A DNA stretch of 64,000 nt from positions 1,116,001 to 1,180,000 of the forward strand of contig NZ_BNEL01000001.1 in the NCBI RefSeq assembly GCF_018327685.1, given 5' to 3'. Position 1 is the first letter of the stretch, and every line of letters begins with the position of its first letter. Below, in pieces: positions 30,685 to 48,388 of the stretch. The notes beneath the pieces were generated by a model. That model was not told the DNA's origin, made no database searches, and saw nothing but the letters and a program-made list of their open reading frames with translations. Both the position numbers and the translations under genes were made by a program. This stretch comes from Streptomyces sp. TS71-3 (lineage in GTDB: Bacteria > Actinomycetota > Actinomycetes > Streptomycetales > Streptomycetaceae).

Positions 30685-31427
30685 CAGGCGCTCTCATCGT
30701 CGGGGACGTGGGACAGTGCTTCGAACAGATCGTGTCGTGGAGTCGTGTCCGGTGGGTTGGGCGGCAGGGGCACCTGGGTGGTGACGACGGCGCGCACGGC
30801 GTGGCGGCGGTGTGCGGCGGCGAAGCTGAGCGGCTGGTCTCGCAGGGTGTCCGTGGCCTCTGGTTCGTCGGCCGCCTTCTCGCGCTGGACGGTCAGCGTG
30901 TCAGGGGGCCGGTGGCGGTGGCGTCTGCGGTACCAGCCGGACGCCTGCCAGGGCACGCTTTCCAGTACGTCCTCCAGGCGGGCGTCCTCGTACACGCCCA
31001 GTTCGATGGGGCCGGCGGGCGGACAGGAGCGGCGGCCGAGGAACGGTGCGTACATCGGGGCTCGCACAGCCTCGTGCAGGGCCTTGAGCAGGGTGTGTTC
31101 GCCTTCGACGGCGGCGACGAAGACGGCGTCGGCGAGGTAGAACCGTTCGGACAGTGGCATCGACTTGTCGGTGTCGGGGTGGTGGGCGGTGTGGAAGTCC
31201 CGGATGCGGGTGCCGGGCTGGTCGGCGCGGACACCGAATCGTAAGGCGGCCAGAGGGGCGAGGCGCCTGTCGTCGCCGCGTTCAAGGCCGGCTGCTGATG
31301 CGAGTAGGCCGATGACGCCGCTCTTGGTGGGGGCGGATTCTGTGGTGCGGCGGGTGAAGCGGGAGGACGCGCCCCAGGATTGCAGAGGACCTGCCAGGCG
31401 TAGGGCGAGCACGGCCGTGCGGTTCAT
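30684..31427 (-). CDS. cas5e: type I-E Cascade subunit Cas5e
   Basis: This 247-residue RAMP protein grips the 5-prime handle of the crRNA in Cascade. Family blocks are LALRLAGPLQSWGASSRF, RRTTESAPTKSGVIGLLASA, GLERGDDRRLAPLAALRFGV and the C-terminal LFEALSHVPDDES. Its start overlaps the cas7e stop by 4 nt. It is intact and of typical length. Confidence 0.96.
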   Translation of the reverse strand: MNRTAVLALRLAGPLQSWGASSRFTRRTTESAPTKSGVIGLLASAAGLERGDDRRLAPLAALRFGVRADQPGTRIRDFHTAHHPDTDKSMPLSERFYLADAVFVAAVEGEHTLLKALHEAVRAPMYAPFLGRRSCPPAGPIELGVYEDARLEDVLESVPWQASGWYRRRHRHRPPDTLTVQREKAADEPEATDTLRDQPLSFAAAHRRHAVRAVVTTQVPLPPNPPDTTPRHDLFEALSHVPDDESA

Positions 31428-32617: not shown

Positions 32618-33306
32618 GAAGCGTCCTTGTCGTCGGTGTCGGTCTCGGTGAGGGAGGTGGCCGCGTGTTCACCGACTGGTCCGGGATGCTGCCAGGTGTG
32701 GAAGGAGCGGCCCCATTCCCGGCGAACGAGGCCGGGCCCGTCGGGCCATTGCCAGGCATAGAACTGACCGGCGAGCAGGCCGTAGTCGAGGGGGACGTCC
32801 GCTCGGCGCAGCAGGACGACGATGTCGCGTAGCCGCTGGACCAGGGTGAGCAGGTCAGGAGCGGCTCCGGCGCGTACCAGTCGTTTGCGGACGGGCTCGT
32901 CGATCCCGTCCGGCGGCATCAGGCGCCGCACGCCGGCACCCAGACCCGCTGGCCGCTCGCGCTGGTGTGGGCGGTGCATCCGGGCGCCACGGGACTGCTG
33001 GTGGAACGCCCAGAGGGTGAGGGCCGCGTGCAGCGCATCCTCCGCCCGGACCAGCTCCGGCTCGCTCAGCGGCCGAAGGGCGTCGGTGTTGGTATGCAGG
33101 GGGCTGGTGTCGACCAGACTCCACAGATCGGGCAGCTCTGCCGCGTCCCGGCCCGCGCCGCGGCGCAGGCGGGCGAGTGCGGCAACGTCCTTGGGCCTGT
33201 CACGGAGGTACCCCTCCTGCCACGGCGTGATCCGGGCAGCCGCGAGATGAGCAACCCGCGAACGCACCGTGGGCGGGGCGGAAGCGATGGTCATACGGGG
33301 GGTCAT
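32614..33306 (-). CDS. cse2: type I-E Cascade small subunit Cse2 (Cas11)
   Basis: This 230-residue protein of the Cse2/CasB family stabilises the displaced DNA strand in the R-loop. Recognisable parts are ALARLRRGAGRDAAELPDLW, ALTLWAFHQQSRGARMHR, GLGAGVRRLMPPDGIDEPVR, KRLVRAGAAPDLLTLVQRLR and YGLLAGQFYAWQWPDG. The last of these precedes an RREWGRSFHTW tail. It overlaps its neighbours by 4 nt at both ends. Confidence 0.95.
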   Translation of the reverse strand: MTPRMTIASAPPTVRSRVAHLAAARITPWQEGYLRDRPKDVAALARLRRGAGRDAAELPDLWSLVDTSPLHTNTDALRPLSEPELVRAEDALHAALTLWAFHQQSRGARMHRPHQRERPAGLGAGVRRLMPPDGIDEPVRKRLVRAGAAPDLLTLVQRLRDIVVLLRRADVPLDYGLLAGQFYAWQWPDGPGLVRREWGRSFHTWQHPGPVGEHAATSLTETDTDDKDAS

Positions 33307-35075
33307 ACGAGGATCTCCGGATCGGGCGTTACACGGTCGTCAATGTCAGACACGGTGGTTGCGGATCGGGCGGTCTCCGGCCCGTTGGACGGCGCCGGCG
33401 CGGGGCGGTCGCCACCGAAGCGTTCGTCGTCGCGGTCCTCGCCGATGTCGTTGAGGCCGGTCAGCAGCCTGGCCAGGCGCCTGCGGAACCATGTGTCGGC
33501 GAGGCCCGTGTTCAGCCATCGGGTGCTCTGCTTGTCGGTGACGGTTCTGCCCTGCCAGGCGGCGTCGCCCGCACCTTCGATGAGACCGTCGCTGAGTCGG
33601 CCGATCAGGCGGCGCACGGAGCGTTTCCAGGCGGTGCGCCGCTCGAACGGGTCGTCCGCTTCGGCCAGGACGGAAAGCCAGGTGCGGTAGGGCTCCTCCA
33701 GAGCGTCGAAGCCCACTGCGCGGGCGGTTCGTCGGGGTCCTTCGTGGTCCCTTCCAGCCGCACGGGCCAGGTCGGCGGCGAGGTCTCCCAGGGCCCGCAC
33801 CGCCAGATCGGCGTCCTCCGCGGCCCCGACGGCCTGCTGGGCGTAGGTGCGGTCCTGGCGGTGGAGCAGTACGACGGGCATCGGCACGTGATCGTCGACG
33901 ATGTCGTCGATCACGGACTGCTGCGTCCCGTAGGCGGCGCCGATCACACGGGCCCGGATGAGGAAGTGGCGAGGTAGATGGCCCTCGGTGACCAGCCGGG
34001 AAACCCATTCGAGGATCGCCGGACGCAGGTACTTCGCCGCCTCCGCTCCCTGCGCGGCCTCGGCCCGATCGGCGACGAGCGAGGCGATGCCACGCCACGC
34101 GGATTGGGCAGGGTCATGTTCACGAGGCAGGTAGACCGGTGTCCGGCGGAGTTTCTTCTCCTGGGCAGTGCTGCGCCGCCACGCCGTCATCGGCTCCCGG
34201 CGATGCATGTTCCGCGACGCGAGCGGGTCCCCGTAGCCGAGGACGACACCGTGGACGCCGTTCGCGTCGTGGTGCAGCCGCAGCCGGCGCGACTGCCAGG
34301 TGTAGAGGTCGCGCGGACCGGTCACGGAGCGCTCGGACCCACCCGGACCGCACGGCTCGCGCCGCCAGGCCGGCCGGTCGTCCTCGGCGATCTCCATTTC
34401 CTCGGTGTCGGCCGCCATCAGATTCAGCAGCAGGGTCTCACGCAGTGTCTCGCCTTCGGCGAAGACGCCTCCCAGCCCGCCGGCCCAGCCCGTGCCCAGC
34501 GGGTAGACCTTGCCCCCTTTGACACGGGCGTCGCCGAGGGCACCGGACTTGATGCCGGAGGTGTCAAAGGCGTGTGCGTGGACGACCCAGCGGGCCGCCT
34601 CGGCGAAGGTCAGCCGCGTCACCGTGGGCATCCGGGCGGTGAAGAAGGGCTCCCCGTTGGGAACGTCGGCCACGATCCGGTTGAGGGGAGAGACCTCGCC
34701 CTTCGCCGTGCGAAGTCCAGCGGTCTGGAAGAACGGCTCGTCGGGATCGAGAAGATCGAAGCGCCTGCGGTGGGTGTCCAGGTACGTCTCGACGGGGGCG
34801 AAGCACTCGGGGTCGCTCCACAGGTCCGCCCAGTCCTCGATGTCACGAGGCCCCTGAAGAGCATCGTGCGCAACGGCCAGCAGGAGGCGTAACAAGGCGA
34901 ACTCCTGCGTGGCCAGATCCCCGACGATGCGCCGTAGACCGCCCACGTGGGCGAACACTTGCCGTAAGGACAACTCGTCCTCGGAGCCGTCCTGTCTGAG
35001 CACACCGATCCACGGCCTGCTGGTCAGGTCGAACGACGGGATCGTGCGGCTACTCGTCCCAGGAGGTTCAGTCAT
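33303..35075 (-). CDS. cas8e: type I-E Cascade large subunit Cas8e (Cse1/CasA)
   Basis: This 590-residue Cse1-family protein recognises the PAM and recruits Cas3. It starts SFDLTSRPWIGVLRQDGSED with the typical LSLRQVFAHVGGLRRIVGDL and DIEDWADLWSDPECFAP blocks. The mid region is ETLRETLLLNLMAADTEEM with a long helical C-terminal bundle that ends LLTGLNDIGEDRDDER. Length is normal for actinomycete Cse1. It overlaps cas3 by 8 nt. Confidence 0.95.
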   Translation of the reverse strand: MTEPPGTSSRTIPSFDLTSRPWIGVLRQDGSEDELSLRQVFAHVGGLRRIVGDLATQEFALLRLLLAVAHDALQGPRDIEDWADLWSDPECFAPVETYLDTHRRRFDLLDPDEPFFQTAGLRTAKGEVSPLNRIVADVPNGEPFFTARMPTVTRLTFAEAARWVVHAHAFDTSGIKSGALGDARVKGGKVYPLGTGWAGGLGGVFAEGETLRETLLLNLMAADTEEMEIAEDDRPAWRREPCGPGGSERSVTGPRDLYTWQSRRLRLHHDANGVHGVVLGYGDPLASRNMHRREPMTAWRRSTAQEKKLRRTPVYLPREHDPAQSAWRGIASLVADRAEAAQGAEAAKYLRPAILEWVSRLVTEGHLPRHFLIRARVIGAAYGTQQSVIDDIVDDHVPMPVVLLHRQDRTYAQQAVGAAEDADLAVRALGDLAADLARAAGRDHEGPRRTARAVGFDALEEPYRTWLSVLAEADDPFERRTAWKRSVRRLIGRLSDGLIEGAGDAAWQGRTVTDKQSTRWLNTGLADTWFRRRLARLLTGLNDIGEDRDDERFGGDRPAPAPSNGPETARSATTVSDIDDRVTPDPEILV

Positions 35076-38052
35076 GGTCGCGGGTCACCTCCAGACCGTC
35101 GAGGGGGCTGTAGCGGAGCAAGAAGCCTGCCAGACGGGTCTGACAATCCTCATCGAGTGTGAGAATCAGCTGGTCGGAGAGCCATGGGCTGCCCTTGCCC
35201 TGCCAGGCGGGCAGATACAGCTTCTCCAGTTCCGCGATGGCCCGGTCCATGGTCTCGGCGTAGGAGAACTGAAGGGGCAGCCGGAGACCGCAACTTGCCG
35301 CCGTGCGTCCCGCGAACGGCGTCGGCGTCTGGTCCTGAGGTAGTTCCAGGCCCCCGCGCTGCCGGCCCTTCCTGTCGGCCTTCAGCCATGGGAGAGTCGT
35401 GAGACTTCCATCGTCACGCCGCTGCACGACGACGACCTCCAGGCTCTCCCGGCCGTCCCGGACCTGGGCCCGCCCGCTCCGGCTGTCGTCAGCGTCACCC
35501 ACTCCCGCCGCTACCCAGCCGAACAGCGACCGTCCTTCACGGCCCACATCGCCGAGGCGGAACACGGCAGCACGCTCGGCCTGATCCGCTCGGTGTTCGT
35601 CGAACCGTGCACGAGCTTCCTCCAACGCGCCAGACCAGTGCGGCGGGCCAACCGGACCCTGCCCGTAGGCATGTTGCACCAGCAGGCTGATGTCCGACGG
35701 CAGCCGCACAGGGCGCTCCGCACCGCCTTCCAGGTGAGGCAGCAGCACCGCGGCCGACCGAAGCAGCGTGTACCTGCCATACACGGCCACCGAGCCCCGG
35801 TCCGGTTCGGGCACGGCTGCTGCCCGGTCGCCCCAGTCGGCTCCCGTGAGCAGACAGCGGGCGGTCCGTAGCTGCCGCGGCCGGTCACTCTGGCCCTCTC
35901 CGCGCCGGTGGCGGTGCAGCCGGCCCATGCGCTGCAGGAGCAGGTCCGCCGGGCACAGATCACTCACCAGCAAGTCGAAGTCCACATCCACCGACTGCTC
36001 CACCACCTGGCTGGCCACCACAATGTGCCGCCCTTCAGGCCGCCGAGCATCCTTCCCCGGAGGTCCGAAGCGCTCCAGCAGATCCCTGTCCTTCGCCATC
36101 CGGTCGACATCGACGAAACACGAGTGAGCGACGGTGACGTCCTCGACACCGAACCTGTCCCGCAGCACACGCGCGGTCTCCAGCACGCGCCTGACCGTGT
36201 TGCGTACCACCAGAACACATCCGCCACCGGCGAGCTCGGCTTCCAACCGGTCGACGAGGACGTCCAGGTCGTCGGCGAGCCACTCCACCACCACGTCCGT
36301 GGACCGTCCCGACGCCCGTGGGCGACACACCAAGGGAGCCCGTCCGGGAACGACCGCGCTGATCAGCGGATACGCGCTGCCCGCCGCACCCGCTGCGCCC
36401 GCCGCGCCCACCTCGGCACGGGGCCCGGTGCCTTCCCCCGCATATGCCCAGAGAAGTTCCTGCCGACGTGCGGCGGGTAGTGTCGCGGACAGCACGATCA
36501 CCGGGACCCGGTAAGCCCCCAACCAGGACAGCACCCGGTCCAGGTACACGTTCATATAGGTGTCGTAGGCGTGCACCTCATCGATGACGACGACCTTGCC
36601 GGCGAGCGCGAGATGGCGAAGAGCCAGGTGTCTGCTCTTCAGCCCCATGAACAGCAACTGATCGATGGTCCCCGCCACGAACGAGGCCAGCATGGCCTTC
36701 TTACGCCCGCGCAGCCACGCATGCGCAACGAGTTCTGCACCACTACGACGCCGTTTACCGGGCTGCTGCCAGGACAAATCCACCGGCTCGTCCACGTCGA
36801 CGGCCATGACCCGCCCTCCTCGGGCCATCAGCTCGGCGAAGTCCTCGTTGAGAGCCGCCTTGGAGTGCGCCAGATGCACCGAGCGCGGTGCCTCCTTCAC
36901 TCCAGGCAGCCGGCCCAACCAGTCGAGCAGACGAGGAAACATGGCATTGCCCGTGGCCATCGTAGGCAGGGCGAAGAACACTCCGCCCGCCCCCGAGCGC
37001 GCAGCGAAGATCTCCGCCACAGCGAGCGCGGCCTCCGTCTTGCCCTCGCCCATCGGCGCCTCGATGATCACCAGACCTGGCGCCTCCATCTCCCGGGCAA
37101 GCAGCACGGCACCCTCCTGGACCGGGCGCACCGTGGCTCCCGCGGGTAGCCCGAACCGTGAGACGAGCAACTCCTGAGCGCTTTCCGCAGGTTCTTCGGC
37201 CCTCCAGGGCCCCGGAAGCTCCAACCCGCGCCAGGCCGCGGCAAGCCGCTCCTCGTCGCTTCGCGACGCCCCGTCGGGGAAATACGGAAAGAGGTCAGGA
37301 TTACTGGCGATCCAGTCACAGACAATGACCAGCGCGGTGAGCAGCACCTGCACCGGCTGCGGCAGCCTCACCGTCCGCCACTGCCCGAGCCGCCCGTCCA
37401 CACCGAAATGAGCGGCGCACGCATCGAGCAACTCGGCCTGCACCTGCCGCCAGACACGACTACTCTCGCCTCGGGTGCGCAGCAACTCCTTATGCTCGTA
37501 GACGGCCTTGATCTGCCCGTGCTCGGGCGGGACACCGTGATGTCCTCCGACAGCAACGGTGAACTGACCTGTGCGGGCGGATGCCCAACCGTGCCGCTCC
37601 TCCAGCCACTCAGCCAGCAGAACCTGCCCGGCCAGGCCGTGCGGCGCGATCCGGCGATCCCTCCCCATCGCCTTGGCCGAACCCATCTCCAGACCCCGCG
37701 CACGCATGACGTCGCCAAGTTGATCCACCTGACAGGCGAAGGCGGGAGTGGCCTTGCCGATGTCATGTACACCAGCGAGCCATACGGCGAGGGCGCGCGC
37801 GTCGGACTCCCCCTGAGGCAGCGCCTCGGCTACCACCCTGCGCACTCGCACGGGCAGCCAGTGGTCCCATAACAGGCCAGCCACAGCCGCACTGTCCTCC
37901 ATGTGCCGCCACAGGGGAAGCCAGCCCTCGGTGTCACGATCATGCTTGGCCCACACGGATCGTGCCGCCGCCCCAAGCCGACCCAGCAGACCGTCAGCAC
38001 CAGATGCACGTTCCTCGGCACGTCGCTCACCGCTCATGACAGAGGAATACAT
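35068..38052 (-). CDS. cas3: type I-E CRISPR nuclease-helicase Cas3
   Basis: This protein of about 994 residues degrades DNA marked by Cascade. The N-terminal HD nuclease has HDIGKATPAFACQ (His96-Asp97) and VGGHHGVPPEHG. The SF2 helicase has Walker A EAPMGEGKTEAALA (332-340), DEVHAYDTYM (motif II, 491-494), VIVLSATLPAARRQ and QVVEQSVDVDFDLLVSDL, with QRMGRLHRHRR as motif VI. It is the first gene of the cas operon. ATG 38052 (MYSSVMSGE) or ATG 38037 are the plausible starts; the upstream extension reaches into the array 2 leader and is unlikely. Confidence 0.95.
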   Translation of the reverse strand: MYSSVMSGERRAEERASGADGLLGRLGAAARSVWAKHDRDTEGWLPLWRHMEDSAAVAGLLWDHWLPVRVRRVVAEALPQGESDARALAVWLAGVHDIGKATPAFACQVDQLGDVMRARGLEMGSAKAMGRDRRIAPHGLAGQVLLAEWLEERHGWASARTGQFTVAVGGHHGVPPEHGQIKAVYEHKELLRTRGESSRVWRQVQAELLDACAAHFGVDGRLGQWRTVRLPQPVQVLLTALVIVCDWIASNPDLFPYFPDGASRSDEERLAAAWRGLELPGPWRAEEPAESAQELLVSRFGLPAGATVRPVQEGAVLLAREMEAPGLVIIEAPMGEGKTEAALAVAEIFAARSGAGGVFFALPTMATGNAMFPRLLDWLGRLPGVKEAPRSVHLAHSKAALNEDFAELMARGGRVMAVDVDEPVDLSWQQPGKRRRSGAELVAHAWLRGRKKAMLASFVAGTIDQLLFMGLKSRHLALRHLALAGKVVVIDEVHAYDTYMNVYLDRVLSWLGAYRVPVIVLSATLPAARRQELLWAYAGEGTGPRAEVGAAGAAGAAGSAYPLISAVVPGRAPLVCRPRASGRSTDVVVEWLADDLDVLVDRLEAELAGGGCVLVVRNTVRRVLETARVLRDRFGVEDVTVAHSCFVDVDRMAKDRDLLERFGPPGKDARRPEGRHIVVASQVVEQSVDVDFDLLVSDLCPADLLLQRMGRLHRHRRGEGQSDRPRQLRTARCLLTGADWGDRAAAVPEPDRGSVAVYGRYTLLRSAAVLLPHLEGGAERPVRLPSDISLLVQHAYGQGPVGPPHWSGALEEARARFDEHRADQAERAAVFRLGDVGREGRSLFGWVAAGVGDADDSRSGRAQVRDGRESLEVVVVQRRDDGSLTTLPWLKADRKGRQRGGLELPQDQTPTPFAGRTAASCGLRLPLQFSYAETMDRAIAELEKLYLPAWQGKGSPWLSDQLILTLDEDCQTRLAGFLLRYSPLDGLEVTRDHD

Positions 38053-38272
38053 GCGAAACGGTGTTGTGTGGGCTGGATTTAGAAGATAAGAGCAACTGGG
38101 GGGTGGTTGGAGAAGACGGACTGCCGAGTCGTATCGCAGTGCATATGCTGGAGAGTTGGGGTGTGGGTGGCCTCGCTCAAGGCAGCTAATTAACAAATGT
38201 CCTATTCATCCGAATCGAATGAAGTGCTCGAAATCCAGCTCCTCCGCCGGCTAAAGTCGCAGGTCATCGAGT
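38053..38272. promoter_or_regulatory. divergent cas promoter region and leader of CRISPR array 2
   Basis: This 220-bp spacer lies between the cas3 start (minus strand) and the first repeat of array 2 (plus strand). The right 61 bp (38212-38272) are homologous to the array 1 leader, including the GTGCTCG and CTAAAG-x-CGCAGGTCA blocks. An AT-rich patch TAATTAACAAATG (38188-38200) is a likely upstream promoter or DNA-bending element. The cas operon promoter must lie in the left part. Confidence 0.7.
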
Positions 38273-40070
38273 CTGCTCCCCGCACCCGCGGGGATGGTCC
38301 CCAGAACCAGACAATGCCCAATGTCTGTAGGCACTGCTCCCCGCACCCGCGGGGATGGTCCCGTCGAGACCCGCTACGGCGCCATGTACAAGGCCTGCTC
38401 CCCGCACCCGCGGGGATGGTCCCACCACCGACATCGAGCAGAGCCGCAGCACGGTCTGCTCCCCGCACCCGCGGGGATGGTCCCAGGTCTGCTGTGCGGG
38501 CCGGTTGTCCGCATCCCTGCTCCCCGCACCCGCGGGGATGGTCCCTCGGGGTCCAGGAGGTGTCGGGGCATCGGAAGCTGCTCCCCGCACCCGCGGGGAT
38601 GGTCCCAGCCAGAGTCCACGATCAAGGGAGAACCGAATCTGCTCCCCGCACCCGCGGGGATGGTCCCGAGGAGAGTGCCCGCCGTGACCACGCACGCGGC
38701 TGCTCCCCGCACCCGCGGGGATGGTCCCCTGCATGCTGGTGATGCCGAGCGCGTTGGCGGCTGCTCCCCGCACCCGCGGGGATGGTCCCGACGAGCTCAA
38801 GGCCACCCTGGCGCAGCTCGGCTGCTCCCCGCACCCCCGGGGATGGTCCCGTACACGTCCGGGTAGCGGTCGGAGACGCCGACTGCTCCCCGCACCCGCG
38901 GGGATGGTCCCACAAGGCCAGACCGTACCGGCATTGCCGTTGGCTGCTCCCCGCACCCGCGGGGATGGTCCCTTTCCGAGAGCCCAGCGCACGGCGTGAG
39001 GGGTCTGCTCCCCGCACCCGCGGGGATGGTCCCGCGCGACGTAGCTCCTCGTCGCGACGCATCCACTGCTCCCCGCACCCGCGGGGATGGTCCCGAGCAG
39101 AATATGACCGGCGCCGCTGTTCCCGTCTGCTCCCCGCACCCGCGGGGATGGTCCCGCGAACGGGGTGTAGGGGGTGAGACGCTTCTTCTGCTCCCCGCAC
39201 CCGCGGGGATGGTCCCGCGGCCTGTCGACTCGTGCCGAGCGCGCGGCCCTGCTCCCCGCACCCGCGGGGATGGTCCGGGCGACCTGGACGACAGCGAGGA
39301 CATCGTCTGCTGCTCCCCGCACCCGCGGGGATGGTCCCGAGACGTTCGCGGAGTCCGAGCAGGATCGCGCCTGCTCCCCGCACCCGCGGGGATGGTCCCG
39401 TGACGTTTCATGACGAGGACGGGCCGCTCGGCTGCTCCCCGCACCCGCGGGGATGGTCCCACTGTCCTGTCGTCAATCTCCACCTTGATGGGCTGCTCCC
39501 CGCACCCGCGGGGATGGTCCCGGCACCTGGACCGTGCCCGGGTGATCGCCAAACTGCTCCCCGCACCCGCGGGGATGGTCCCCCGTCGGTCTGGGCTTGG
39601 AGGTAGAAGGCGGTCTGCTCCCCGCACCCGCGGGGATGGTCCCGGCATGGTCCTGGAGGTCATGGGCGAGGTCGCCTGCTCCCCGCACCCGCGGGGAAGG
39701 TCCTCCGCGCGTGCGGCGGCGACGCCGTCCCGGGTGCTGCTCCCCGCACCCGCGGGGATGGTCCCGGCTGCTGGACAACGAGGGCCGCGGCCGGCGCCTG
39801 CTCCCCGCACCCGCGGGGACGGGCCCTACCCGGACACGCTCACGCGGGTCGCGGTCAACTGCTCCCTGCACCCGCGGGGATGGTCCCGCGAGGATGAGTC
39901 CGATGTCGATTACTTCCTGCTGCTCCCTGCACCCGCGGGGATGGTCCCGTGCAGGGTTCCACCGGCTCAGCCGGGACGGCTGCTCCCCGCACCCGCGGCG
40001 ATGGCCCCAGTCCAGGTCCGCGCCGAACGCCTGACTCATCCTGCTCCCCCCACCCGCGGGGGATGGCCCC
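38273..40070 (+). CRISPR. CRISPR array 2, type I-E, 30 repeats and 29 spacers
   Basis: The same 29-bp repeat as array 1 occurs on the plus strand with 32-bp spacers (61-bp period), starting at 38273 next to the leader. Repeats are near identical up to about 39615. After that they decay: the repeats at 39676, 39798, 39859, 39920, 39980 and 40041 each carry one or more changes, the spacer before 39980 is one base short, and the last repeat has one extra base. One repeat at 38822 has CCCC in the loop and 39249 ends in G. The decay confirms that the leader-proximal end is on the left. Confidence 0.98.
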
Positions 40071-40257: not shown

Positions 40258-41034
40258 GTGGAGCGGCGCGATATGCGAGGGCATTACGAGGAGCTGGCAG
40301 TCGAGTACGACGAGCACTGGGTCTACGGTCCGGACTACGTTCCCTGGATGTCGGGCCGGATCGCAGATGCGTTGCGGCTCGTTCCCACGGACCGAATCGC
40401 CGATGTCGGCTCGGGGACGGGTCTGTTCGCCAGAGAAGTGGCGCGTCAGCTCCAGCCTCGTCATCCCATTCTGTGTGTCGATCCGTCCGAGGCCATGCTC
40501 AGTCAGCTTGGCACGCCGCCGCCGGCCGCTCTGACGCCGATCGTTGCGTCTGCTGAGGACATCGCCGAAGGACGTACGCGTCTGCCCTACGAGCGGCTCG
40601 ACGCGATGTGGTTGAAGGAGTCCGTGCACCACGTGGCCGATCCGGCTCGCACGCTTCGTGGCCTGGCCGACCGGCTGGCGCCCGGAGGCCGGTTGCTGGT
40701 GGTGATGCTTCCGGCCAGTATCCAGTACCCGCTGTTCGAGGCGGCCCTGGCGCGGTTCGAGGAGTTGCAGCCGGATCCCGCCGTTGTCGAGGGGCATCTG
40801 CGCGCGGCGGGGCTGGAGGCCAGCCTGACTTACGTCGAGCATGAGCTGCGCATCGACCGGGACAAGTATCTCGGCATGGTGCGTGCTCGCTACATGTCTC
40901 TGCTCTCCACGTTCAGCGACAGCGAGATCGAGAAGGGCATCGAGGAGATGCGCGCCGCTCATCCGGAGCCGGTTCTGGTGCTTCCCGACCGGTTCGCCTT
41001 CGTCCTCGGTCGGCGGGTCGGGGAGTCCGTGTGA
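40258..41034 (+). CDS. class I SAM-dependent methyltransferase (first gene of STAND operon)
   Basis: This 258-residue Rossmann-fold methyltransferase opens with YEELAVEYDEHWVYGPDYVP. SAM-binding motif I is IADVGSGTGLFAREVA (about residues 47-62), and acidic VDPSEAM follows as motif II. LDAMWLKESVHHVADPARTL and LAPGGRLLVVMLP correspond to the post-I region. The substrate is unknown; the UbiE/small-molecule type is the closest by eye. GTG 40258 has GAGGGGG just upstream. The stop overlaps the GTG of the NACHT gene (GTGA, 41031-41034), so it belongs to the same operon. It sits 187 bp from the end of CRISPR array 2. Confidence 0.85.
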   Translation: MERRDMRGHYEELAVEYDEHWVYGPDYVPWMSGRIADALRLVPTDRIADVGSGTGLFAREVARQLQPRHPILCVDPSEAMLSQLGTPPPAALTPIVASAEDIAEGRTRLPYERLDAMWLKESVHHVADPARTLRGLADRLAPGGRLLVVMLPASIQYPLFEAALARFEELQPDPAVVEGHLRAAGLEASLTYVEHELRIDRDKYLGMVRARYMSLLSTFSDSEIEKGIEEMRAAHPEPVLVLPDRFAFVLGRRVGESV

Positions 41035-43685
41035 GCGCCATGGTCGACGAGCGGTTGCGGCGCCTGCGCAGTGAACTCGACGACCATTCACGGATCGCCG
41101 ATCGACTGGGGCTCGATCTGGAGCGGCCGTTACGGTCCCTCAACGACGGCTACCCCGAGAACGCGGTGGCCCTGGTCGGGAAACTGACCGAGAAGCTGCT
41201 CAAGGAGTTGTGGCGTCACCACGACATCGAGGGGGATCCTTCGACGAAGGCGCTGAACGACCTGGTCAAGCGGTGCCGTCCGCACATTCGCAGCAGCACG
41301 GTTCTGGATGCGCTCGACGACATTCGACGGCTCCGTAACCGCTCGACGCACGACGGGTACGACATCAGTGACGAGGACGGCCTGCTGGCGGTCCGCAGGC
41401 TCGTAGACGTACTGGTCTGGTTCACAGACACCGGGAGTGCCGCGCTCCTCGGTGGCGAGCCCGATATGGTGCCCGAGGTGGCGCGCCGCTGCGAGTTTCT
41501 CGCCGGGCTGTACGTCACCCTTGGGTACCGGCAGGCCAAGCGGTTCGTCCTCAGCCCGGATACCGTGTACCAGCTGTTCTGCCGTGAGTCGGGCATGCGG
41601 CTGGAGTACGTGGAGTTGATGCTCTCCCGGGATGCCGACGACCTGAGCACCGTTCTTGCCTCCAGCGGCGGGGAGCTGCTGCGTACCCGGTTGCCCAAAC
41701 TCACTCGGTTCGTCGTCCTGGACAACGACAGCGGCGCGCAGCCCGGCGCCCTCCACCAGATGCTGGGTCTCGACTTCCGCATCGTGCGCTACGACGGCTT
41801 CGTCGACACCCTCGTCGATCTTGACGCTCACCTCTCCCATCTGTCCTCCGCTCATGTCCTGGCGGGGCCGCGGACTGCTGTCCCCGCGGCGGCGCTGACC
41901 ACAGATCCGCGCACCGGCGAGTTGAGGATGGAACAGTCCGAAGACGCTGCGGAACTCCTGAGGCGCCTGGTGCGCGGCAGCGCGAACGTCCTGGTCACCG
42001 GACGCCCGGGGAGCGGCAAGAGCACGCTTTTGCGCTCCCTGGCTGCCAATCCGGAGGTCCGCCGCTTCCGCTTCTACTTCGATCTGAGTCTAAAACCGAA
42101 GGGTGAACCGTTCTCCGAGTACGCGGCCCGCCTCCTCGCGCCGGCCATGACCTCGGACCGTTCGCGTGCTTACGATCTCTTCCTCTACCTCATCCGTTCC
42201 GGCACGGCGGTGTGTGTGCTCGACGCGGTGGACGAGGGCGTCGACGAGCCAAGCCCTGCCGGCTTCCTGCGGCTCTTCACCGATCTGGCAGCCGTCCTGT
42301 CCGCCGAATCGGCAGTGGTGATGAGTTCAAGGGTCTCCTTCCTCGCGGACTCGCCCCAGGTACGCCAGCTGCTGGACAGCGGCGCGGGCCGCTCCGAGCA
42401 ACTGGTGGAGCAGATGTACGCGAACGGCCTCGATCCGTCCCGCGTGCCTCACTTCCATGTCGTACGCCTGGCTGATCCGAAGGCAACTCCTCTGGAGAGG
42501 CGCCTCACCGCGTCACTGAAGCTTCCTGCGGGGAAGCCGCTCGCGGACATCTTGGGCGTTCACCTTTCGCGGACGTTGGCGGAGGCCGGGCAGGCTGAGT
42601 TGGAGCAGCGGTTGCCCGCCGCGTTCGGCCACGCCTTCCTTACCGACCGCACTGTGTTCTCCCTCCTCGATATCCACCGGCAGTTGGGTGCCGGCGCCTT
42701 CAAGGACGGGCGCCTCGGTCTCGACAACTGTGTCCTGGCTCCTGTGCTGCGGCCTGCCGGGCGAGATCACCTTGCTTTCGCGCACACGGCGTACCAGGAG
42801 TTACTGGCTGCCAGGTTTCTGGCCGAGCCGAAGAACCGGGAAACCGCAGCGGACCTTTCAGGCGGTGCCTTCCTTACCGAGCAGGTCCGCGCGTTCCTTG
42901 CCGGAATGCCCGGCAGCCCCGAAACAGAGGACTGCGTGCTGCCCGCCGGAGCGTATCTGGTCGGGCCGGCAGAACGGCTGCTGATCCGCCGCGTCGAACG
43001 CCCCGTACGCTTCGACCGCCATGCGGTGACGGTCGAACGCTACCGCCGCTTCCTCGACGCCTTGGACGCGGACGGCACCTCGCAGTGGGACCACCCCGAC
43101 CAGCCGGCTCACGTGACACACCGCCCGTGGACCGACCGGCTGATGCGGCCCGACTACTACGAGAATCCGCGCTATGCCGACCACCCCGCCATCTGCGTGA
43201 GCTGGTGGAGCGCCTACGCCTTCGCGGCGTTCGACGGCAAGCGTCTGCCGACCTCGCTGGAATGGGAGGCCGCGGCCCGTGGAAGCTTCGGGCGCTTGTT
43301 CCCCTGGGGCGACGGCCCCGACATCGCCCGTGTCAACTGCGCCGACACATGGGTCGATCAGCCCGTCGTGACCTACCAGGCGTGGTACCGGGACTTCGCG
43401 GGCGATGCTGTCAGGCGGGCAGGGGTGACACCCGTCGGCGAACGGCCCGGCAACCGCTCGCCGTTCGGCGTCCTCGACATGGTGGGCAACTGCTGGGAAT
43501 GGACCTCCACCAGCCTGGACGACCTCGGCGAGGCCGTCATCTGCGGCGGCAGCTACGACAACCCGATGCGTGCGGTGCAGACGAGTAGCAAGGGCATCTA
43601 CCGGAAGCGCGGAACAAGCAACGCGGTCGGCTTCCGGTGTGTGCAAGACGCCGACACGTCCAGCACAGGGGAGACGACGCAATGA
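41031..43685 (+). CDS. HEPN-NACHT STAND NTPase with C-terminal FGE-like domain
   Basis: This is an 884-residue multidomain protein. Residues about 25-135 look like a DUF4145-type HEPN domain and contain RNRSTH (Arg102, His107), an R-X4-H pattern seen in HEPN ribonucleases. A linker domain leads to a NACHT-type NTPase with Walker A TGRPGSGKST (323-332), Walker B VCVLDAVDEG (Asp398, Asp401-Glu402) and MSSRVSFL. A helical region follows. The C-terminal quarter (about 660-880) is FGE-sulfatase-like: LPTSLEWEAAARGSFGRLFP, GVLDMVGNCWEWTS, CGGSYDNP and VGFRCV. The cysteine pair needed for formylglycine synthesis is not visible, so this part is probably a binding module. NACHT STAND proteins act as ligand-triggered immune switches in bacteria. 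It is coupled by 4-nt overlaps on both sides. Confidence 0.85.
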   Translation: MSAMVDERLRRLRSELDDHSRIADRLGLDLERPLRSLNDGYPENAVALVGKLTEKLLKELWRHHDIEGDPSTKALNDLVKRCRPHIRSSTVLDALDDIRRLRNRSTHDGYDISDEDGLLAVRRLVDVLVWFTDTGSAALLGGEPDMVPEVARRCEFLAGLYVTLGYRQAKRFVLSPDTVYQLFCRESGMRLEYVELMLSRDADDLSTVLASSGGELLRTRLPKLTRFVVLDNDSGAQPGALHQMLGLDFRIVRYDGFVDTLVDLDAHLSHLSSAHVLAGPRTAVPAAALTTDPRTGELRMEQSEDAAELLRRLVRGSANVLVTGRPGSGKSTLLRSLAANPEVRRFRFYFDLSLKPKGEPFSEYAARLLAPAMTSDRSRAYDLFLYLIRSGTAVCVLDAVDEGVDEPSPAGFLRLFTDLAAVLSAESAVVMSSRVSFLADSPQVRQLLDSGAGRSEQLVEQMYANGLDPSRVPHFHVVRLADPKATPLERRLTASLKLPAGKPLADILGVHLSRTLAEAGQAELEQRLPAAFGHAFLTDRTVFSLLDIHRQLGAGAFKDGRLGLDNCVLAPVLRPAGRDHLAFAHTAYQELLAARFLAEPKNRETAADLSGGAFLTEQVRAFLAGMPGSPETEDCVLPAGAYLVGPAERLLIRRVERPVRFDRHAVTVERYRRFLDALDADGTSQWDHPDQPAHVTHRPWTDRLMRPDYYENPRYADHPAICVSWWSAYAFAAFDGKRLPTSLEWEAAARGSFGRLFPWGDGPDIARVNCADTWVDQPVVTYQAWYRDFAGDAVRRAGVTPVGERPGNRSPFGVLDMVGNCWEWTSTSLDDLGEAVICGGSYDNPMRAVQTSSKGIYRKRGTSNAVGFRCVQDADTSSTGETTQ

Positions 43686-43948
43686 GCGGGGCCGGGGCGC
43701 GGCAGGGAACCATCGTCGACAGGCGCCCGAGCGGTGGAGGACCGAGCGGTGCGCTCGGCTCGTACGTCGTCCGGGACGACGAGGACGAGCGGTACTACAC
43801 CTTCGACTACCGGCAGATCGTCACCGAGGGATTCCGGACCATCCGCACCGGCGAGCACGTCCGCTTCTACATCAGCGCCGAGAGCCCCGATCGGGCCGAG
43901 TTCGTCATCCGCCTCGACCAGCCCGACCCGGCCGAGTACTACCGGTGA
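43682..43948 (+). CDS. small cold-shock-like (OB-fold) protein of the STAND operon
   Basis: This 88-residue protein is encoded between the NACHT and CorA-like genes. After a Gly/Arg-rich start, the stretch GTIVDR through GSYVVRDDEDERYYTFDYRQ and IVTEGFRTIRTGEHVRFYIS resembles the strand order of cold-shock domains, which often bind nucleic acid. The classical RNP1 aromatic motif is not obvious, so this remains tentative. The ATG overlaps the upstream stop (ATGA) and its own stop overlaps the next start (GTGA). The tight coupling argues that it is a real component, perhaps an RNA-binding or adaptor subunit. Confidence 0.65.
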   Translation: MSGAGARQGTIVDRRPSGGGPSGALGSYVVRDDEDERYYTFDYRQIVTEGFRTIRTGEHVRFYISAESPDRAEFVIRLDQPDPAEYYR

Positions 43949-45261
43949 CCACGGCCGGTAACCCACTGCTTGAGGAGGTCACGGGGGCACGCCAGGAGCT
44001 GACCGTCGTCCTGCCGGTGCGGCTGCTGCGCACCCCCCAGTGGCCCGAAGGGCCCTTCCCCTTCGATCTGGGTAACCGCCGCACGGACACCCAGACCCGC
44101 TCCACCTACTTCGCACCCGCTTCCGCCCGCGCACTGTACGGGGAACCCGGGCGGCCATGTCGATGGCATCTGCCGCTCGACGTCAAGCACGACGGGTTGC
44201 AGCTGCTCGGGATGGAACTGCTGCGTGCGGCCACCACCAGCAACACCGAGCACGCCCTTGCCGTCCTTCACTTCAGCGTGGAAAGAGAGCTGCTGCCCGT
44301 GCTGCGGGCCCTGGCCGGTCGGCGGCCGAACCACGGTGAGGAACCGCTCACCGGGCCCTTCGACCCTGCCAGGCTCCTCGCGGGCGTCGCCGATGTTCGT
44401 GACCGCGACGCACCCTTCGCCATCGCTCGGCCCTACACGATCGCCTTCCTGACCCCCACGCCGCAACAGACCCCCGCGCTCCGCTCCGGCTTGGAAGGGA
44501 CACTGCCCGCCACCGCCGACCGCTGGCTGTGGCAGCTCGCCTCACGCTCCACACCCGAGGACTTCCCCCTGCCACCCGAGACCGCCGGCCAGCAATTCAA
44601 GGACGCCATAAGGATCTCAGCGGACTGGAGCGCCCTGGTACTTCGACAAGGGGCTGCTTTCCTCGGCCATCGGGCGGACACCGGGGCGGGCGACTTCTTC
44701 GAGTTCGCCGCACTGCATTCCCGCACCGTCTACCTCGACGCCCTGCTCCTCGGCTCGCTCCAGCGCGATCACATCGACGAGCTCACGGACGAACTCTCCC
44801 ACGTGTTCACCTCCGCGCGGCTGGCCCACCGGGTCGCCAGACTGGAGAGGAACATCGCCGTCTTCCGCAGCACCTACTGGCGCCAGCACCTCACGGCACA
44901 CGGGCCGGCGAATGATCTCCTGCTCGCCTTCCAGAACCAGCACCGGTTACCCGTACGGTTCGACGAGATCCTCGCCGAAGCGGCCGACTACAGCAGGCTC
45001 GTGCAGACCCAGGAAAGCCAGCAGATCAGCGGGGCCCTGGGCGTCCTGACCATCCTCGGTCTACCGCTCAGCACAGCCCTGAGCATCCTGCAGGTCCTCG
45101 ACGACCACTCCGTGGTCGACCTGATCGTCTCCCTCACCTTGTCGATCGCCGCCACGGCCGCGGCTCTGACCACGCGGTACGGGCGCTTGGTCCTGTCGTC
45201 GCTGCGGGGCGAGATGACCAGGCGTAGAGATCACCGAACTGCCCACCGACGTGATGGCTGA
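43945..45261 (+). CDS. CorA-topology membrane protein of the STAND operon
   Basis: This 438-residue protein has a large hydrophilic N-terminal region. Near the C-terminus are two closely spaced membrane helices, about 361-381 (SGALGVLTILGLPLSTALSI) and 390-410 (VVDLIVSLTLSIAATAAALT). A basic cytoplasmic tail follows. This is the arrangement of CorA-type magnesium channels, and a helical stretch SARLAHRVARLERNIAVFRS precedes them, but the CorA GMN signature is absent. A likely role is a membrane effector whose pore opens when the STAND partner is activated, but that is inference. The GTG start overlaps the upstream stop (GTGA). It ends 51 bp from a convergent immunity gene. Confidence 0.65.
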   Translation: MTTAGNPLLEEVTGARQELTVVLPVRLLRTPQWPEGPFPFDLGNRRTDTQTRSTYFAPASARALYGEPGRPCRWHLPLDVKHDGLQLLGMELLRAATTSNTEHALAVLHFSVERELLPVLRALAGRRPNHGEEPLTGPFDPARLLAGVADVRDRDAPFAIARPYTIAFLTPTPQQTPALRSGLEGTLPATADRWLWQLASRSTPEDFPLPPETAGQQFKDAIRISADWSALVLRQGAAFLGHRADTGAGDFFEFAALHSRTVYLDALLLGSLQRDHIDELTDELSHVFTSARLAHRVARLERNIAVFRSTYWRQHLTAHGPANDLLLAFQNQHRLPVRFDEILAEAADYSRLVQTQESQQISGALGVLTILGLPLSTALSILQVLDDHSVVDLIVSLTLSIAATAAALTTRYGRLVLSSLRGEMTRRRDHRTAHRRDG

Positions 45262-45312: not shown

Positions 45313-45765
45313 TCAGTCAAGACCTCCTGTGTCGATGAGGTGGGCGAGGAACAACTCCTCCAGTGCGTCGTCGGAGGCGTTGGGCAGTCTGGTGTCAGGA
45401 ATGTCGCTTTCCAAGCCCCATTCCGTGTTGAAGGTGATGCCGAGCCTGTCAGGGATGAGGTTCGCTCGCGCCCACGCCACGAACTCCGCTGCCATCGCGG
45501 CAGTGCTTTCTTCAATAGCCAACCCTTCCGGGTTCAACTTGGCGATTCCCTCTGCTTCCTCACCTCCGTCCAGTGTGATACCGAAGAAAAGCGATGCCTC
45601 ACCACCGGGCAGTTCTGCTCGTGGGTCCTCGGTCCGGATGAACTCGTTGGGGTCGCGCGCCAGTAGTCGCTCACGGATCTGGGTGAAGGTCAGCCCCCAT
45701 GTCTCGCCTGCGGGGGGCGTAAAGATGTAGGTTGTGCGCAGCTCGGCGAGCTCACTGGTATTCAT
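45313..45765 (-). CDS. probable immunity protein for the adjacent toxin
   Basis: This 150-residue acidic soluble protein (TWGLTFTQIRERLLARDPNE, LFFGITLDGGEEAEGIAKLN) belongs to no family I recognise with certainty. It directly follows a polymorphic toxin gene with a 30-bp gap. Its size, acidity and position are what is expected of a cognate immunity protein that blocks the nuclease domain. The start ATG 45765 has AAGGA 6 nt upstream. Confidence 0.6.
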   Translation of the reverse strand: MNTSELAELRTTYIFTPPAGETWGLTFTQIRERLLARDPNEFIRTEDPRAELPGGEASLFFGITLDGGEEAEGIAKLNPEGLAIEESTAAMAAEFVAWARANLIPDRLGITFNTEWGLESDIPDTRLPNASDDALEELFLAHLIDTGGLD

Positions 45766-45795
45766 TGGTCAGTCCTTGCGTGGCTCTGCTTGTGG

Positions 45796-47334
45796 TCAGG
45801 GTGCATAGCGAGCGTAGCCCTTCACCCCGTAAGCAGCCATCATCAGGCGCCAGTATCCCACGGAGTCCGGGTTGTTCGTGACGGTCTCCACGCCGCGCAT
45901 CTCGCTGTTTCGTGGGTCTTTGAGGGCGGCGGAGTACTTGGCCAACTCCTTGCGGTCTGATGCGTACAGGAAGTCTCTCTTTCCTGTTTGGCTGCTTTCG
46001 CGGAGTTGGTCGAGGGTTCGGTAGCACTTGCGTTCGTCGTTGACATATTTTGCTTCCACCGCCATGCCGTCGCTGTTGCGGAACCCGTCGACCATAAGGG
46101 TGTTGTGCTTACCGAAACCCGGAGGGATCGGCACTTCGTACTCCGGATATCCCGCTACGCGTTTCTGATAGGCGACCTCCGCAGGCTTTCCTCCAGATAC
46201 GTCACCCTGGCGTAGTGAGTCGAGCCAGGTTTGGAAATCTTTCCGGTCGTTTCCTGTCAGGGGCGGGAAGCGCGGGTCCGGAGGTACTGGTGGAGGGATC
46301 GGTTGTCGACGTGGTCCGTTGGCCGGTCGGAAGCCAGCGGGGACGAGAACCGGCACGCGCACCGGCCACGGGATCAGTGGTGGTAGGGGGGGCAGGAGGC
46401 CGTGGTCTGTATCCGGCTTCGGGATCTTCACCTGTGCCTTGGACGCGTCCAGGGCGTGCGGTATGTGGCCCAGTCCGGCGATGTGCACGTCGTTGGCCAC
46501 CAGCTCGGGAAGTCCGCCGTCGTGGCCCTCGCCGCCGAAGACCGGCATTCTCCACACCGGCAATGGGTCACCAAGGACGGGGTCATTCTCGTCTGGGATC
46601 CTCTTGAGCGCAGTGCCAATGTGGTCGGCGTACGCTTCGCAGGCGTTGGCGAGCATTTTGCATGCTGCGGGAAGATTGGCGAGAAGGGTTTCCTGGTCGC
46701 TTACTTGAGCGGGGGGTGGATTCTTTCCAACGAACTTCTTGAACCAGCCTTCAATGGAATCAGCCGCGTCACCTGCCTGGTCGAGAGTGGCCGTTCGCCA
46801 CGCGGTGTCAGAGTCCCAATACGCGTTACCGAGGATCTCGGATGCAGTACGCCAACTCCCTGCCACCTTCCGTAATTTCTCTCGCTGGCCGTGGAATCGC
46901 TGATTGAGAAGGTATCGATCCACCCCGCTGGTCTCACCTACGACTTCGGGTAGATCCTCGGCCTCATGGCTTACTCGCGCCGAGCAGTCCGGTTTTGATG
47001 GCATCGAACCGATTCCCGGCGCCCCGGGCGATCGGTCGAGTATTTCCGCGGCGATCTTGCTTTCGTGCTTGAGGAAAATCTCCGCCCCTTCAACGAGAGC
47101 ATTCGCCCCGCCCGCCATGGCCTGGTGAGCGTGCCCTGCCGAGTCGAAAACAGCCTTCACAGCAGGCTTGTATACGGCTGCGAACGCCCGCCCGGCATCA
47201 TCGTCTCCCGCCATACCACCGTTCTCGGCGAGAGCCGCGAAGAGGAGGCTCAACATGTCGTAAATCAAGTCTCTCAAACCCACCAGCGACCACGACGCGT
47301 TGACGAAGTTCGCTGTTTGATGCCGAAGGTCCAA
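45796..47334 (-). CDS. polymorphic toxin with C-terminal restriction-endonuclease-fold domain
   Basis: This 512-residue protein has a helical, WXG/ESX-like N-terminal half, a Pro-rich linker (PLPPLIPWPVRVPVLVPAGF region) and a toxin domain from about residue 365. The toxin part contains FQTWLDSLRQGDVSGGKPAE, RVAGYPEYEVPIPPG and VDGFRNSDGMAVEAKYV. Asp416 and the Glu427-X-Lys429 pair form a PD-(D/E)XK-type nuclease site. The domain resembles the restriction endonuclease fold toxins of polymorphic toxin systems. The start is TTG 47334, supported by a perfect AGGAGG 8 nt upstream. The protein is likely exported by a type VII/ESX-like route, since no signal peptide is seen, and is neutralised by the downstream gene product. 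Confidence 0.8.
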   Translation of the reverse strand: MDLRHQTANFVNASWSLVGLRDLIYDMLSLLFAALAENGGMAGDDDAGRAFAAVYKPAVKAVFDSAGHAHQAMAGGANALVEGAEIFLKHESKIAAEILDRSPGAPGIGSMPSKPDCSARVSHEAEDLPEVVGETSGVDRYLLNQRFHGQREKLRKVAGSWRTASEILGNAYWDSDTAWRTATLDQAGDAADSIEGWFKKFVGKNPPPAQVSDQETLLANLPAACKMLANACEAYADHIGTALKRIPDENDPVLGDPLPVWRMPVFGGEGHDGGLPELVANDVHIAGLGHIPHALDASKAQVKIPKPDTDHGLLPPLPPLIPWPVRVPVLVPAGFRPANGPRRQPIPPPVPPDPRFPPLTGNDRKDFQTWLDSLRQGDVSGGKPAEVAYQKRVAGYPEYEVPIPPGFGKHNTLMVDGFRNSDGMAVEAKYVNDERKCYRTLDQLRESSQTGKRDFLYASDRKELAKYSAALKDPRNSEMRGVETVTNNPDSVGYWRLMMAAYGVKGYARYAP

Positions 47335-47497: not shown

Positions 47498-48388
47498 TCA
47501 TGGGATCGCGGTCCACCTCCACGGTCGTGGGCCTTCCAGCCCTCGTATGCAGGACACGCGGTAGGCGGCCTGGTCCCGGGCGCCGGGTTGTTCGTCGGCG
47601 TACTGGACGGCGAAGGAGGCCTGGCGGAGTTCCCGGATGCTGAGCATGGTGCGGTAGCCGCTCCAGGAGGTGACGTCGTGGCCGTAGGCCTCGCAGTAGC
47701 GTTCGTAGTCCTCGCGCGGCAGGGTGCCGAAGGTTTCCATGTCGCCGGCGGTGGCGGTCAGGTCCCATTCCGGGCGGCCGAGCGACGTTCGCTCGAAGTC
47801 CAGGAGGTACGTGGTTGCCTCGGTGTCCGTGATCACGCAGTTGCCCTGCCAGGCGTCGCCGTGGATGACGCGGGCAGGTCGGCCTTCGGGGAGTTCGTTC
47901 CACTGCTGTTCCAGGTCGGCGAGCTGTCCCATGAGCCAGGTGCGGTCGGTGTCCGGGAGCCAGGATGCCTGGGTGATGCGGTCCGCGACGCGTACGAAGG
48001 GGTTCATGGTGCCGAGCGGGATGTTCGGTACCGGCAGGTCGTGCATCTGCCGAAGGAGTGGAGCCAGGTCCATGACGGTGCCGGTGCGGTGGGGTGGGAG
48101 TTCTTCCCAGAAGGTCACCGCGCGACCGCCGACTACGACCGGCTGGTCGATGTCCAGCGGCCGGACCGCACGGAGTCCGCTTCCCGCGAGCCAGCGCGTG
48201 ACCGCCACCTCGCGGACGGCGGCCTTGTCCTGGCCCGCGCGGGAGATACGAGCGACGATCTTGCCGGGGAGGCGCCAGATGTCGTTCTCGGCGAAACGTA
48301 TGGGCTCAGCTCCTGTACAGGATATGTCTGCCGCGCCTGCGGCCTCGATGAGGACCGCGAAGGACGCGCTGAGCCGGTCTGCTGTCAT
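47498..48388 (-). CDS. aminoglycoside phosphotransferase (APH) family kinase-like protein
   Basis: This 296-residue protein has the APH/choline-kinase fold. The catalytic loop VIHGDAWQGNCVITD contains the Asp and Asn of the HGDxxxxN motif, and the metal-binding LLDFERTSLGRPEWDL is the DFG-equivalent. Many Streptomyces members of this family phosphorylate unknown small molecules, so antibiotic resistance cannot be assumed. ATG 48388 overlaps the stop of the upstream helix-turn-helix regulator (ATGA). Confidence 0.85.
   Translation of the reverse strand: MTADRLSASFAVLIEAAGAADISCTGAEPIRFAENDIWRLPGKIVARISRAGQDKAAVREVAVTRWLAGSGLRAVRPLDIDQPVVVGGRAVTFWEELPPHRTGTVMDLAPLLRQMHDLPVPNIPLGTMNPFVRVADRITQASWLPDTDRTWLMGQLADLEQQWNELPEGRPARVIHGDAWQGNCVITDTEATTYLLDFERTSLGRPEWDLTATAGDMETFGTLPREDYERYCEAYGHDVTSWSGYRTMLSIRELRQASFAVQYADEQPGARDQAAYRVSCIRGLEGPRPWRWTAIP

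Follow-up and report, generated by a model that had tools for sequence, protein, structure and literature searches.

What do four overlapping genes between a CRISPR array and a toxin gene in Streptomyces sp. TS71-3 encode, and what might their products do together? The genes, here called A to D, lie in a stretch of 64,000 nucleotides (positions 1,116,001 to 1,180,000 of contig NZ_BNEL01000001.1; hereafter the window) of a 9.79-Mb genome in three contigs, whose nearest relatives, judged by the locus of this four-gene module, are Streptomyces. A sequence-only reading of the window had described a four-gene operon for a methyltransferase, a HEPN-NACHT-FGE protein of the bacterial NLR type, a cold-shock-like protein and a membrane protein of CorA topology. 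By sequence comparison, this module is real, conserved and, as far as we searched, undescribed; it is a new combination of known parts. From its sequences and predicted structures, the cassette, which occurs in Streptomyces and soil bacteria related to it and pairs a bacterial relative of animal immune receptors with a membrane protein of a type otherwise found in some CRISPR systems, looks like an uncharacterised defence system.

Conservation of the four-gene unit

At all three joints the genes of the window overlap by 4 nt (GTGA for A/B, ATGA for B/C, GTGA for C/D), exactly as the sequence-only reading had stated. Such overlaps are frequent in Streptomyces and by themselves are therefore weak proof; they were rejected as sole proof of function, the weight resting on their conservation across relatives. 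Scanning species genomes with an alignment of D proteins yielded 76 distinct named loci (L with a number below), and a class sample of 394 genomes, which overlaps these loci in part (e.g. L109 and L035 carry identical proteins), was searched as well. All four genes in order, the co-occurrence by which the earlier reading had proposed to check its operon, were found near D on the same strand by tblastn at 34 of the 76 loci, in Streptomyces, Frankiaceae and Thermomonosporaceae; the others contain B-C-D (four), A-B-D (one), A-D (two) or D alone (35). In the class sample D is matched below 1e-30 in 15 genomes, at least two of these matches being partial, and C in 13. Twelve of the C matches are among the 15 D genomes and lie directly before D, and the thirteenth is marginal (E 9e-5). 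B precedes C in those twelve genomes, and a called A precedes B in eleven of them.

Where both genes were called, a 4-nt overlap is possible at 31 of 34 A/B, 33 of 34 B/C and 29 of 36 C/D joints. The flanks vary, since the 33 immediate upstream genes belong to 29 families and the 33 downstream genes likewise to 29. Pairwise protein distances of A to D correlate with r 0.94-0.98 over the 30 loci (window included) at which all four genes passed the length limits, as for a single shared phylogeny; when Frankiaceae and Thermomonosporaceae are left out, r is 0.89-0.98. These comparisons demonstrate that the four genes are a conserved, tightly coupled unit, and co-occurrence, kept overlaps, varied flanks and correlated distances together imply that the cassette was inherited and relocated as a single block. 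One D with 85% identity is located on a 1.03-Mb Streptomyces mirabilis plasmid, the sole match among 72,556 plasmid records. No phage record matches D, which is uninformative either way.

Gene B

In the window copy of B, Pfam FGE-sulfatase matches strongly and the HEPN-like DUF4145 weakly, whereas the AAA/NACHT matches stay below cut-off. The Pfam NACHT cut-off of 26.7 bits is exceeded in three of three other B copies, the window copy staying below it (20.1 and 24.2 bits in two runs). In an alignment of 33 B proteins, LRNR[SA][STA]HD, which includes the HEPN RNxxxH motif, is present in every sequence, as are both Walker motifs (Table 1). The N-terminal domain has a helical HEPN fold with this motif, from which RNase activity is predicted. 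In the predicted structure of B, NLR folds are the top matches of the NTPase, with NOD2 and NLRP7 best and NLRC4 also found, and HEPN and FGE proteins are matched too. The three domains and the NLR-type character that the earlier reading had proposed for B are thus backed by sequence and predicted structure. A linker at residues ~148-261 looks alpha/beta in the predicted model; the two structure searches, neither of them directed at this part by itself, gave it no fold.

The C-terminus has the FGE fold, and its best PDB match by phmmer is SUMF2, an FGE paralogue. The catalytic cysteine pair of FGE (C336/C341 in human FGE) is absent, the CGG[SA][YF]DNPxRAxQ-type stretch being free of cysteine in all 33 B proteins. 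The domain is conserved, with 64 of 236 positions invariant in the same alignment. Taken together, sequence and model demonstrate that B contains the components of an NLR-type switch, namely HEPN, NACHT and a C-terminal FGE fold. By position the HEPN and FGE ends are effector-type and sensor-type domains, respectively, and they may act as such.

Published systems share parts of this layout. As in bNACHT (PMC12169576) and Avs proteins (PMC10907252), an N-terminal effector-type domain is followed by a central NACHT with NLR fold and by a C-terminal domain in the place of the sensor; what sets B apart, going by the descriptions of these proteins, which give different effector and C-terminal domains and mention no comparable operon, is its N-terminal HEPN, its C-terminal FGE and its constant operon with methyltransferase, cold-shock domain (CSD)-like and CorA-like partners. 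STAND-FGE conflict systems have also been described (PMC10907252, PMC7159879). Like the 'antigen sensors' among them, in which the FGE/C-type-lectin end of a STAND protein is varied by a diversity-generating retroelement (DGR; PMC10907252), and like the ternary FGS conflict systems (PMC7159879), B has a STAND/NACHT part followed by a C-terminal FGE domain and occurs in multicellular bacteria. Unlike in those systems, the FGE domain of B is conserved and not hypervariable (DGR linkage was not searched), HEPN is N-terminal and a CorA-like partner is present. According to PMC10907252, experimental characterisation of C-type-lectin domains on STAND proteins had been lacking; the module supplies an NLR-like protein whose FGE-type end is not diversified. 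Finally, DUF499 BREX-related systems (PMC12839542) have HEPN fused to an ATPase and an adjoining methyltransferase. The module differs from them in having no helicase, no DUF499 among the Pfam matches listed for B, a small A and a CorA-like protein.

Gene D

D has no Pfam match, and PADLOC CorA models match it at E 4e-10. When the PADLOC type III CRISPR CorA models were run against 13 diverse D proteins at E<=0.01, PDLC01043 found all 13, PDLC01174 eleven and PDLC01178 six, the sequence match being limited to the C-terminal helical/membrane part (approximately residues 196-388). The AlphaFold model of D has a predicted local distance difference test (pLDDT) score of 88.4 and shows a long helix running into two C-terminal hydrophobic helices, as in the CorA fold. 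Foldseek returned just seven matches at E<=0.001, all of them CorA. Among solved structures, a sequence search gave three chains (best E 0.5), none convincing. Together, these data demonstrate that D is in the CorA superfamily by predicted fold and that its sequence resembles type III CRISPR CorA effectors. The two-helix CorA-type membrane end named in the sequence-only reading is therefore seen in the predicted structure, as are the HEPN and NACHT domains for which that reading had proposed structure prediction as a check; the likeness to type III CRISPR effectors, as well as the occurrence of solitary D genes treated below, was absent from it. CorA transporters carry a GMN motif after membrane helix 1, and this motif is found in none of the 47 sequences of the D structure alignment.

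CorA is present in 53 type III loci, with an Actinomyces clade tied to Csm6-2 (PMC11229360). Like these effectors (PMC10600005, PMC11229360), D has a CorA-type membrane end after a large soluble N-terminal domain. Unlike them, it matches in its C-terminal half only and has A to C, not cas10, as partners: D does not lie in a cas10 locus, its conserved neighbours are A to C, and the Cas10 palm PF22335 has no match in 30 of 34 genomes (33 with A-B-C and one with a divergent build, L037, described below), with a match in four. A wider CorA effector clade in Actinomycetota was considered and rejected. A search with PDLC01178 (346 genomes, E<=1e-6) recovered the window D alone, weak evidence from a model that misses some D proteins even at E<=0.01.

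Table 1. Coordinates of the module, its domains and neighbouring features in the window.
Feature	Position	Strand	Description
Gene A	40258 (GTG) or 40273 (ATG)-41034	+	class I S-adenosylmethionine-dependent methyltransferase, 258 aa (253 aa from ATG)
Gene B	41031-43685	+	HEPN-(alpha/beta linker)-NACHT-FGE protein, 884 aa, NLR-like
HEPN domain, B residues 19-141	41085-41453	+	
HEPN RNxxxH motif RNRSTH, B residues 102-107	41334-41351	+	
NACHT NTPase, B residues 262-477	41814-42461	+	
Walker A GRPGSGKS, B residues 324-331	42000-42023	+	motif in 33/33 aligned B proteins
Walker B CVLDAVDE, B residues 395-402	42213-42236	+	motif in 33/33 aligned B proteins
FGE-sulfatase (C-type-lectin-like) domain, B residues 634-875	42930-43655	+	catalytic cysteines absent
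Gene C	43682-43948	+	cold-shock/OB-like protein, 88 aa; weak CSD matches
Gene D	43945-45261	+	CorA-like membrane protein of 438 aa with a beta-rich N-terminal domain and a CorA-type helical/membrane region
D residues 335-408	44947-45168	+	50-residue helix continuing into the first membrane helix, which a short loop joins to the second; GMN motif absent
CRISPR array, outside module	38258-40061		61-nt period, type I-E
Tox-REase-2 polymorphic-toxin protein	45796-47334	-	WXG100-like match below cut-off

Proposed function of the module

We give about an even chance to the reading that A to D are a compact, horizontally shuffled actinomycete defence module, probably one of abortive infection. In such a module B would be the sensor, and an infection cue would be read by its FGE/C-type-lectin-like end. 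The cue would lead to ATP-dependent assembly of the NACHT part and thereby switch on the HEPN RNase, and activated B might open D as a membrane channel, either directly or via a small molecule. RNA cleavage and membrane depolarisation would then stop cell and phage alike. C, a small oligonucleotide/oligosaccharide-binding (OB)-like protein, could bind RNA or bridge B and D, and A could use S-adenosylmethionine (SAM) to make, modify or restrain the signal. We infer defence, RNase activity, channel opening, the order of events and the roles of A and C from the parts of the module.

The flow of information could also be reversed, D sensing a membrane or ion disturbance and triggering B, with the HEPN RNase as sole effector. 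The large soluble N-terminal domain of D and the fact that D can be kept without B would suit this arrangement. We nevertheless consider it very unlikely, since the C-terminal domain of B sits where STAND proteins have their sensors (PMC10907252) and the role ascribed to type III CorA is that of an effector (PMC10600005).

No description of a HEPN-NACHT-FGE protein with a CorA-like partner was found in the open-licence literature searched, in which key NACHT/STAND papers may be missing; the sequence-only reading had not recognised the arrangement either. The module links two lines of immunity that are treated separately, the NLR-like NACHT sensors and the type III CRISPR CorA effectors. If it defends, a CorA-type effector would be run by an innate sensor and not by Cas10, and the operon, being small, widespread and present in the genetically tractable Streptomyces, would be at hand for asking which signal opens such channels.

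Genes A and C and the L037 build

A is matched by Pfam Methyltransf_12 with 48.6 bits and by four other families over cut-off, and it is conserved over nine aligned loci. Cold-shock proteins have an RNP1 motif of the KGFGFI type. For C, the cold-shock likeness claimed earlier holds as far as weak sequence matches go (Pfam CSDE1 E 0.0047, best PDB match E 0.0038, best matches E 0.004-0.03), but RNP1 is found in none of eleven aligned C proteins, all of which share the core F[DS]YxxIVxEGFRT.

A different build occurs at L037:4509-8364 (G056:C32), in the same family as the Frankia copies. Here D is located behind a single 848-aa protein that replaces A-B-C and has a P-loop near its start, an RNDFVH (RNxxxH) motif and a C-terminal methyltransferase; by this motif only, the protein can be called HEPN-like. 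NTPase, HEPN-like motif and methyltransferase are thus found again with D in a locus that has neither C nor FGE. Although it is a single case, this recurrence of the same parts in another build is counted in favour of the defence reading. In a search for relatives of the fusion, 27 of the 394 class genomes matched at E<=1e-15, of which 26 match in the methyltransferase part only and the 27th is its own genome.

The SAM-using enzyme coded beside D, both in the module and in the unlike architecture of L037, brings up the possibility that activated B and A make or modify a SAM- or nucleotide-derived signal that opens D, as a CRISPR-free counterpart of the SAM-AMP to CorA pathway. D matches the type III CRISPR CorA models, and Chi et al. 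reported that CorA of the Bacteroides fragilis type III-B system binds SAM-AMP, which is made from ATP and SAM (PMC10600005). However, the type III CorA likeness spares the N-terminal domain of D, the expected ligand binder, solitary D persists without A, and the family-level matches of A are ordinary small-molecule methyltransferases, far under their cut-offs. Moreover, gene families other than A to C are each shared by 26 of the 76 D loci at most, and hence no constant signal-degrading partner was seen, although NrN, DEDD and SAM-AMP lyase were not searched by name. Thus, we regard a SAM-derived second messenger as unlikely. Also unlikely, and slightly more so, is its elaboration into a CRISPR-independent SAM alarm, in which an NLR-like NACHT-HEPN sensor and a dedicated methyltransferase would make or edit a SAM-derived messenger gating a CorA-type channel; if it were true, the type III CRISPR CorA branch and the module would each be a use of a single, more ancient signalling device.

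The position of A, which immediately precedes B at the 34 full loci and overlaps it in 31 of 34, would also fit a toxin-antitoxin arrangement, in which A (and C) keeps the HEPN RNase of B in check, through modification of either the RNA target or B, until infection lifts the restraint. HEPN-MNT is a known example of a HEPN toxin with a modifying enzyme as its partner (PMC12839542), and loss of the module mostly takes away A, B and C at once and leaves D. This arrangement leaves a CorA-type channel as fourth partner unexplained, and four loci have B-C-D without a match to A, some of these loci, at least, being truncated or disrupted. We therefore hold it to be distinctly unlikely.

Solitary D genes and evidence against a dedicated defence module

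A number of results weigh against the defence reading, and the solitary D genes are foremost among them. D is alone in 35 of the 76 loci by the script tally, about 30 of which are judgeable. L056, L074, L114 and L117 lie at contig ends and were not counted as judgeable solitary D. L080, tallied as solitary, has an intact D on the plus strand and, about 2 kb away on the minus strand, A-B-C with a fragment of a second D (L080:9956-17422), as if one D had replaced the other. The called D frame has at least 400 aa in 24 of the 30 judgeable loci. The called frame is short at L078, L106 and L107, where D is probably broken, and at L079, L097 and L104 the caller picked another frame. Full-length B is present in just two of the 22 genomes reached via a D-only locus, once on the opposite strand beside D (L080) and once elsewhere in the genome (Streptomyces sp. 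B93, the genome of L069 as well). Purifying selection still acts on solitary D, if somewhat less strongly than in the module, with dN/dS of 0.16-0.42 (10 pairs, one including the contig-end locus L074) as compared to 0.10-0.23 for the module (10 pairs), and therefore D has some use without B. As the main counter-result, the solitary loci argue against a D that serves only the module, and a dependence of D on A to C everywhere was rejected because of them.

The structural evidence has its weak points as well. The model of B is of moderate confidence (mean pLDDT 70.6) and drops below 50 at residues 436-484 and over much of 757-884. For D, the TM-scores to CorA are low (0.19-0.23), and a second aligner ties CorA with unrelated helical bundles. 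Nor are defence genes dominant in the flanks, which were scanned at 34 loci for up to two proteins per side (125 proteins of 60-1200 aa). The position in a defence island that the sequence-only reading had called typical is only partly borne out: some of these proteins match models for I-E Cas, type IV restriction and GajB-like proteins, but the commonest Pfam families are DUF5753 and HTH_31 with 8 of 125 each (in both cases among the matches listed).

Solitary D genes could also mean that D works as an ion channel or metal transporter, regulated by A to C in stress or development, and that the module spread for a reason other than defence. Solitary D is conserved, partly at a fixed place directly upstream of a gene of family F7 (nine loci), and ZIP family metal transporter and CorA-like Mg2+ transporter are among the database names. 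The lack of GMN in the aligned D proteins speaks against a transporter, and the patchy presence of D in the class sample, the changing flanks and an NLR-type protein in the same operon speak against a function of this kind; we judge it unlikely too. F7 was rejected as a fixed alternative partner of solitary D, being a separate gene 69-174 nt away, and no other such partner was found; F86/F87 are located before D in one locus and after D in another.

A D tree was calculated from 70 sequences of more than 300 aa with a midpoint root, some of its long branches meeting; B-C-D and A-B-D loci were grouped with A-B-C-D, and L056, L074 and L080 were labelled as D. The module occurs on deep-lying branches (Frankiaceae, Thermomonosporaceae, basal Streptomyces), and nine changes are required to account for the four content states. 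Repeated loss of A to C is therefore the likeliest explanation of solitary D on this tree.

The start of D in Frankiaceae

In seven of eight Frankiaceae C/D joints (L034, L035, L036, L038, L039, L040 and L041) a near-fixed C end is accompanied by GGAGGT, six bases and ATT in the D frame, with no ATG, GTG or TTG within 35 bases after the ATT. In the eighth (L043) the ATT is lost and an ATG lies 18 bases further. The Glu codon that creates the ATT is GAA in all seven joints, as compared to a GAA share of 21% among the Glu codons of the eight pooled B genes. L037, which has no C, keeps GGAGGT, five bases and ATT before D (L037:7122-7146). An AUU start with a strong Shine-Dalgarno sequence was reported for a staphylococcal gene (PMC13009471). 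Joining of C and D by frameshift was rejected and an AUU start preferred. The Frankiaceae D genes appear to start at AUU behind the strong GGAGGT, which suggests that D is held at low or controlled dosage.

Genomic surroundings

The CRISPR array upstream of the module lies beside minus-strand genes (30684-38037) matched by Cas3e, Cas8e, Cas7e and Cas5e models and is therefore of type I-E. The Thermomonospora copy of the module likewise adjoins type I-E Cas8e and Cas3e genes (L115:485-5060; 33303-38037 in the window). The sequence-only reading had placed the module between this array and a toxin-immunity pair: array and Tox-REase-2 protein are indeed there, and the 150-aa neighbour of the latter, with which it spans 45313-47334 (minus strand), is a candidate immunity protein by position only. 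A phosphotransferase-like protein of the APH family at 47498-48388 (minus strand) adjoins an HTH_31 regulator.

In other genomes a UvrD helicase paired with a large helicase was observed near the module (L033:12887-19899, L040:3-5780 and L041:1-4760; also L049, L099 and L101). The UvrD helicase has GajB-like model matches in both copies scanned, and the large helicase has Druantia DruE-like model matches in the single copy scanned. Outside the window, the same Streptomyces sp. TS71-3 genome encodes a Cas10-palm-like protein, a RAMP protein and an S_4TM (SMODS-associating 4TM) membrane effector (G000:C1 ~1224671-1234387, corresponding to L148:8672-18388). By eye, these genes lie downstream of an integrase-like gene, and they may represent a type III-like hybrid locus.

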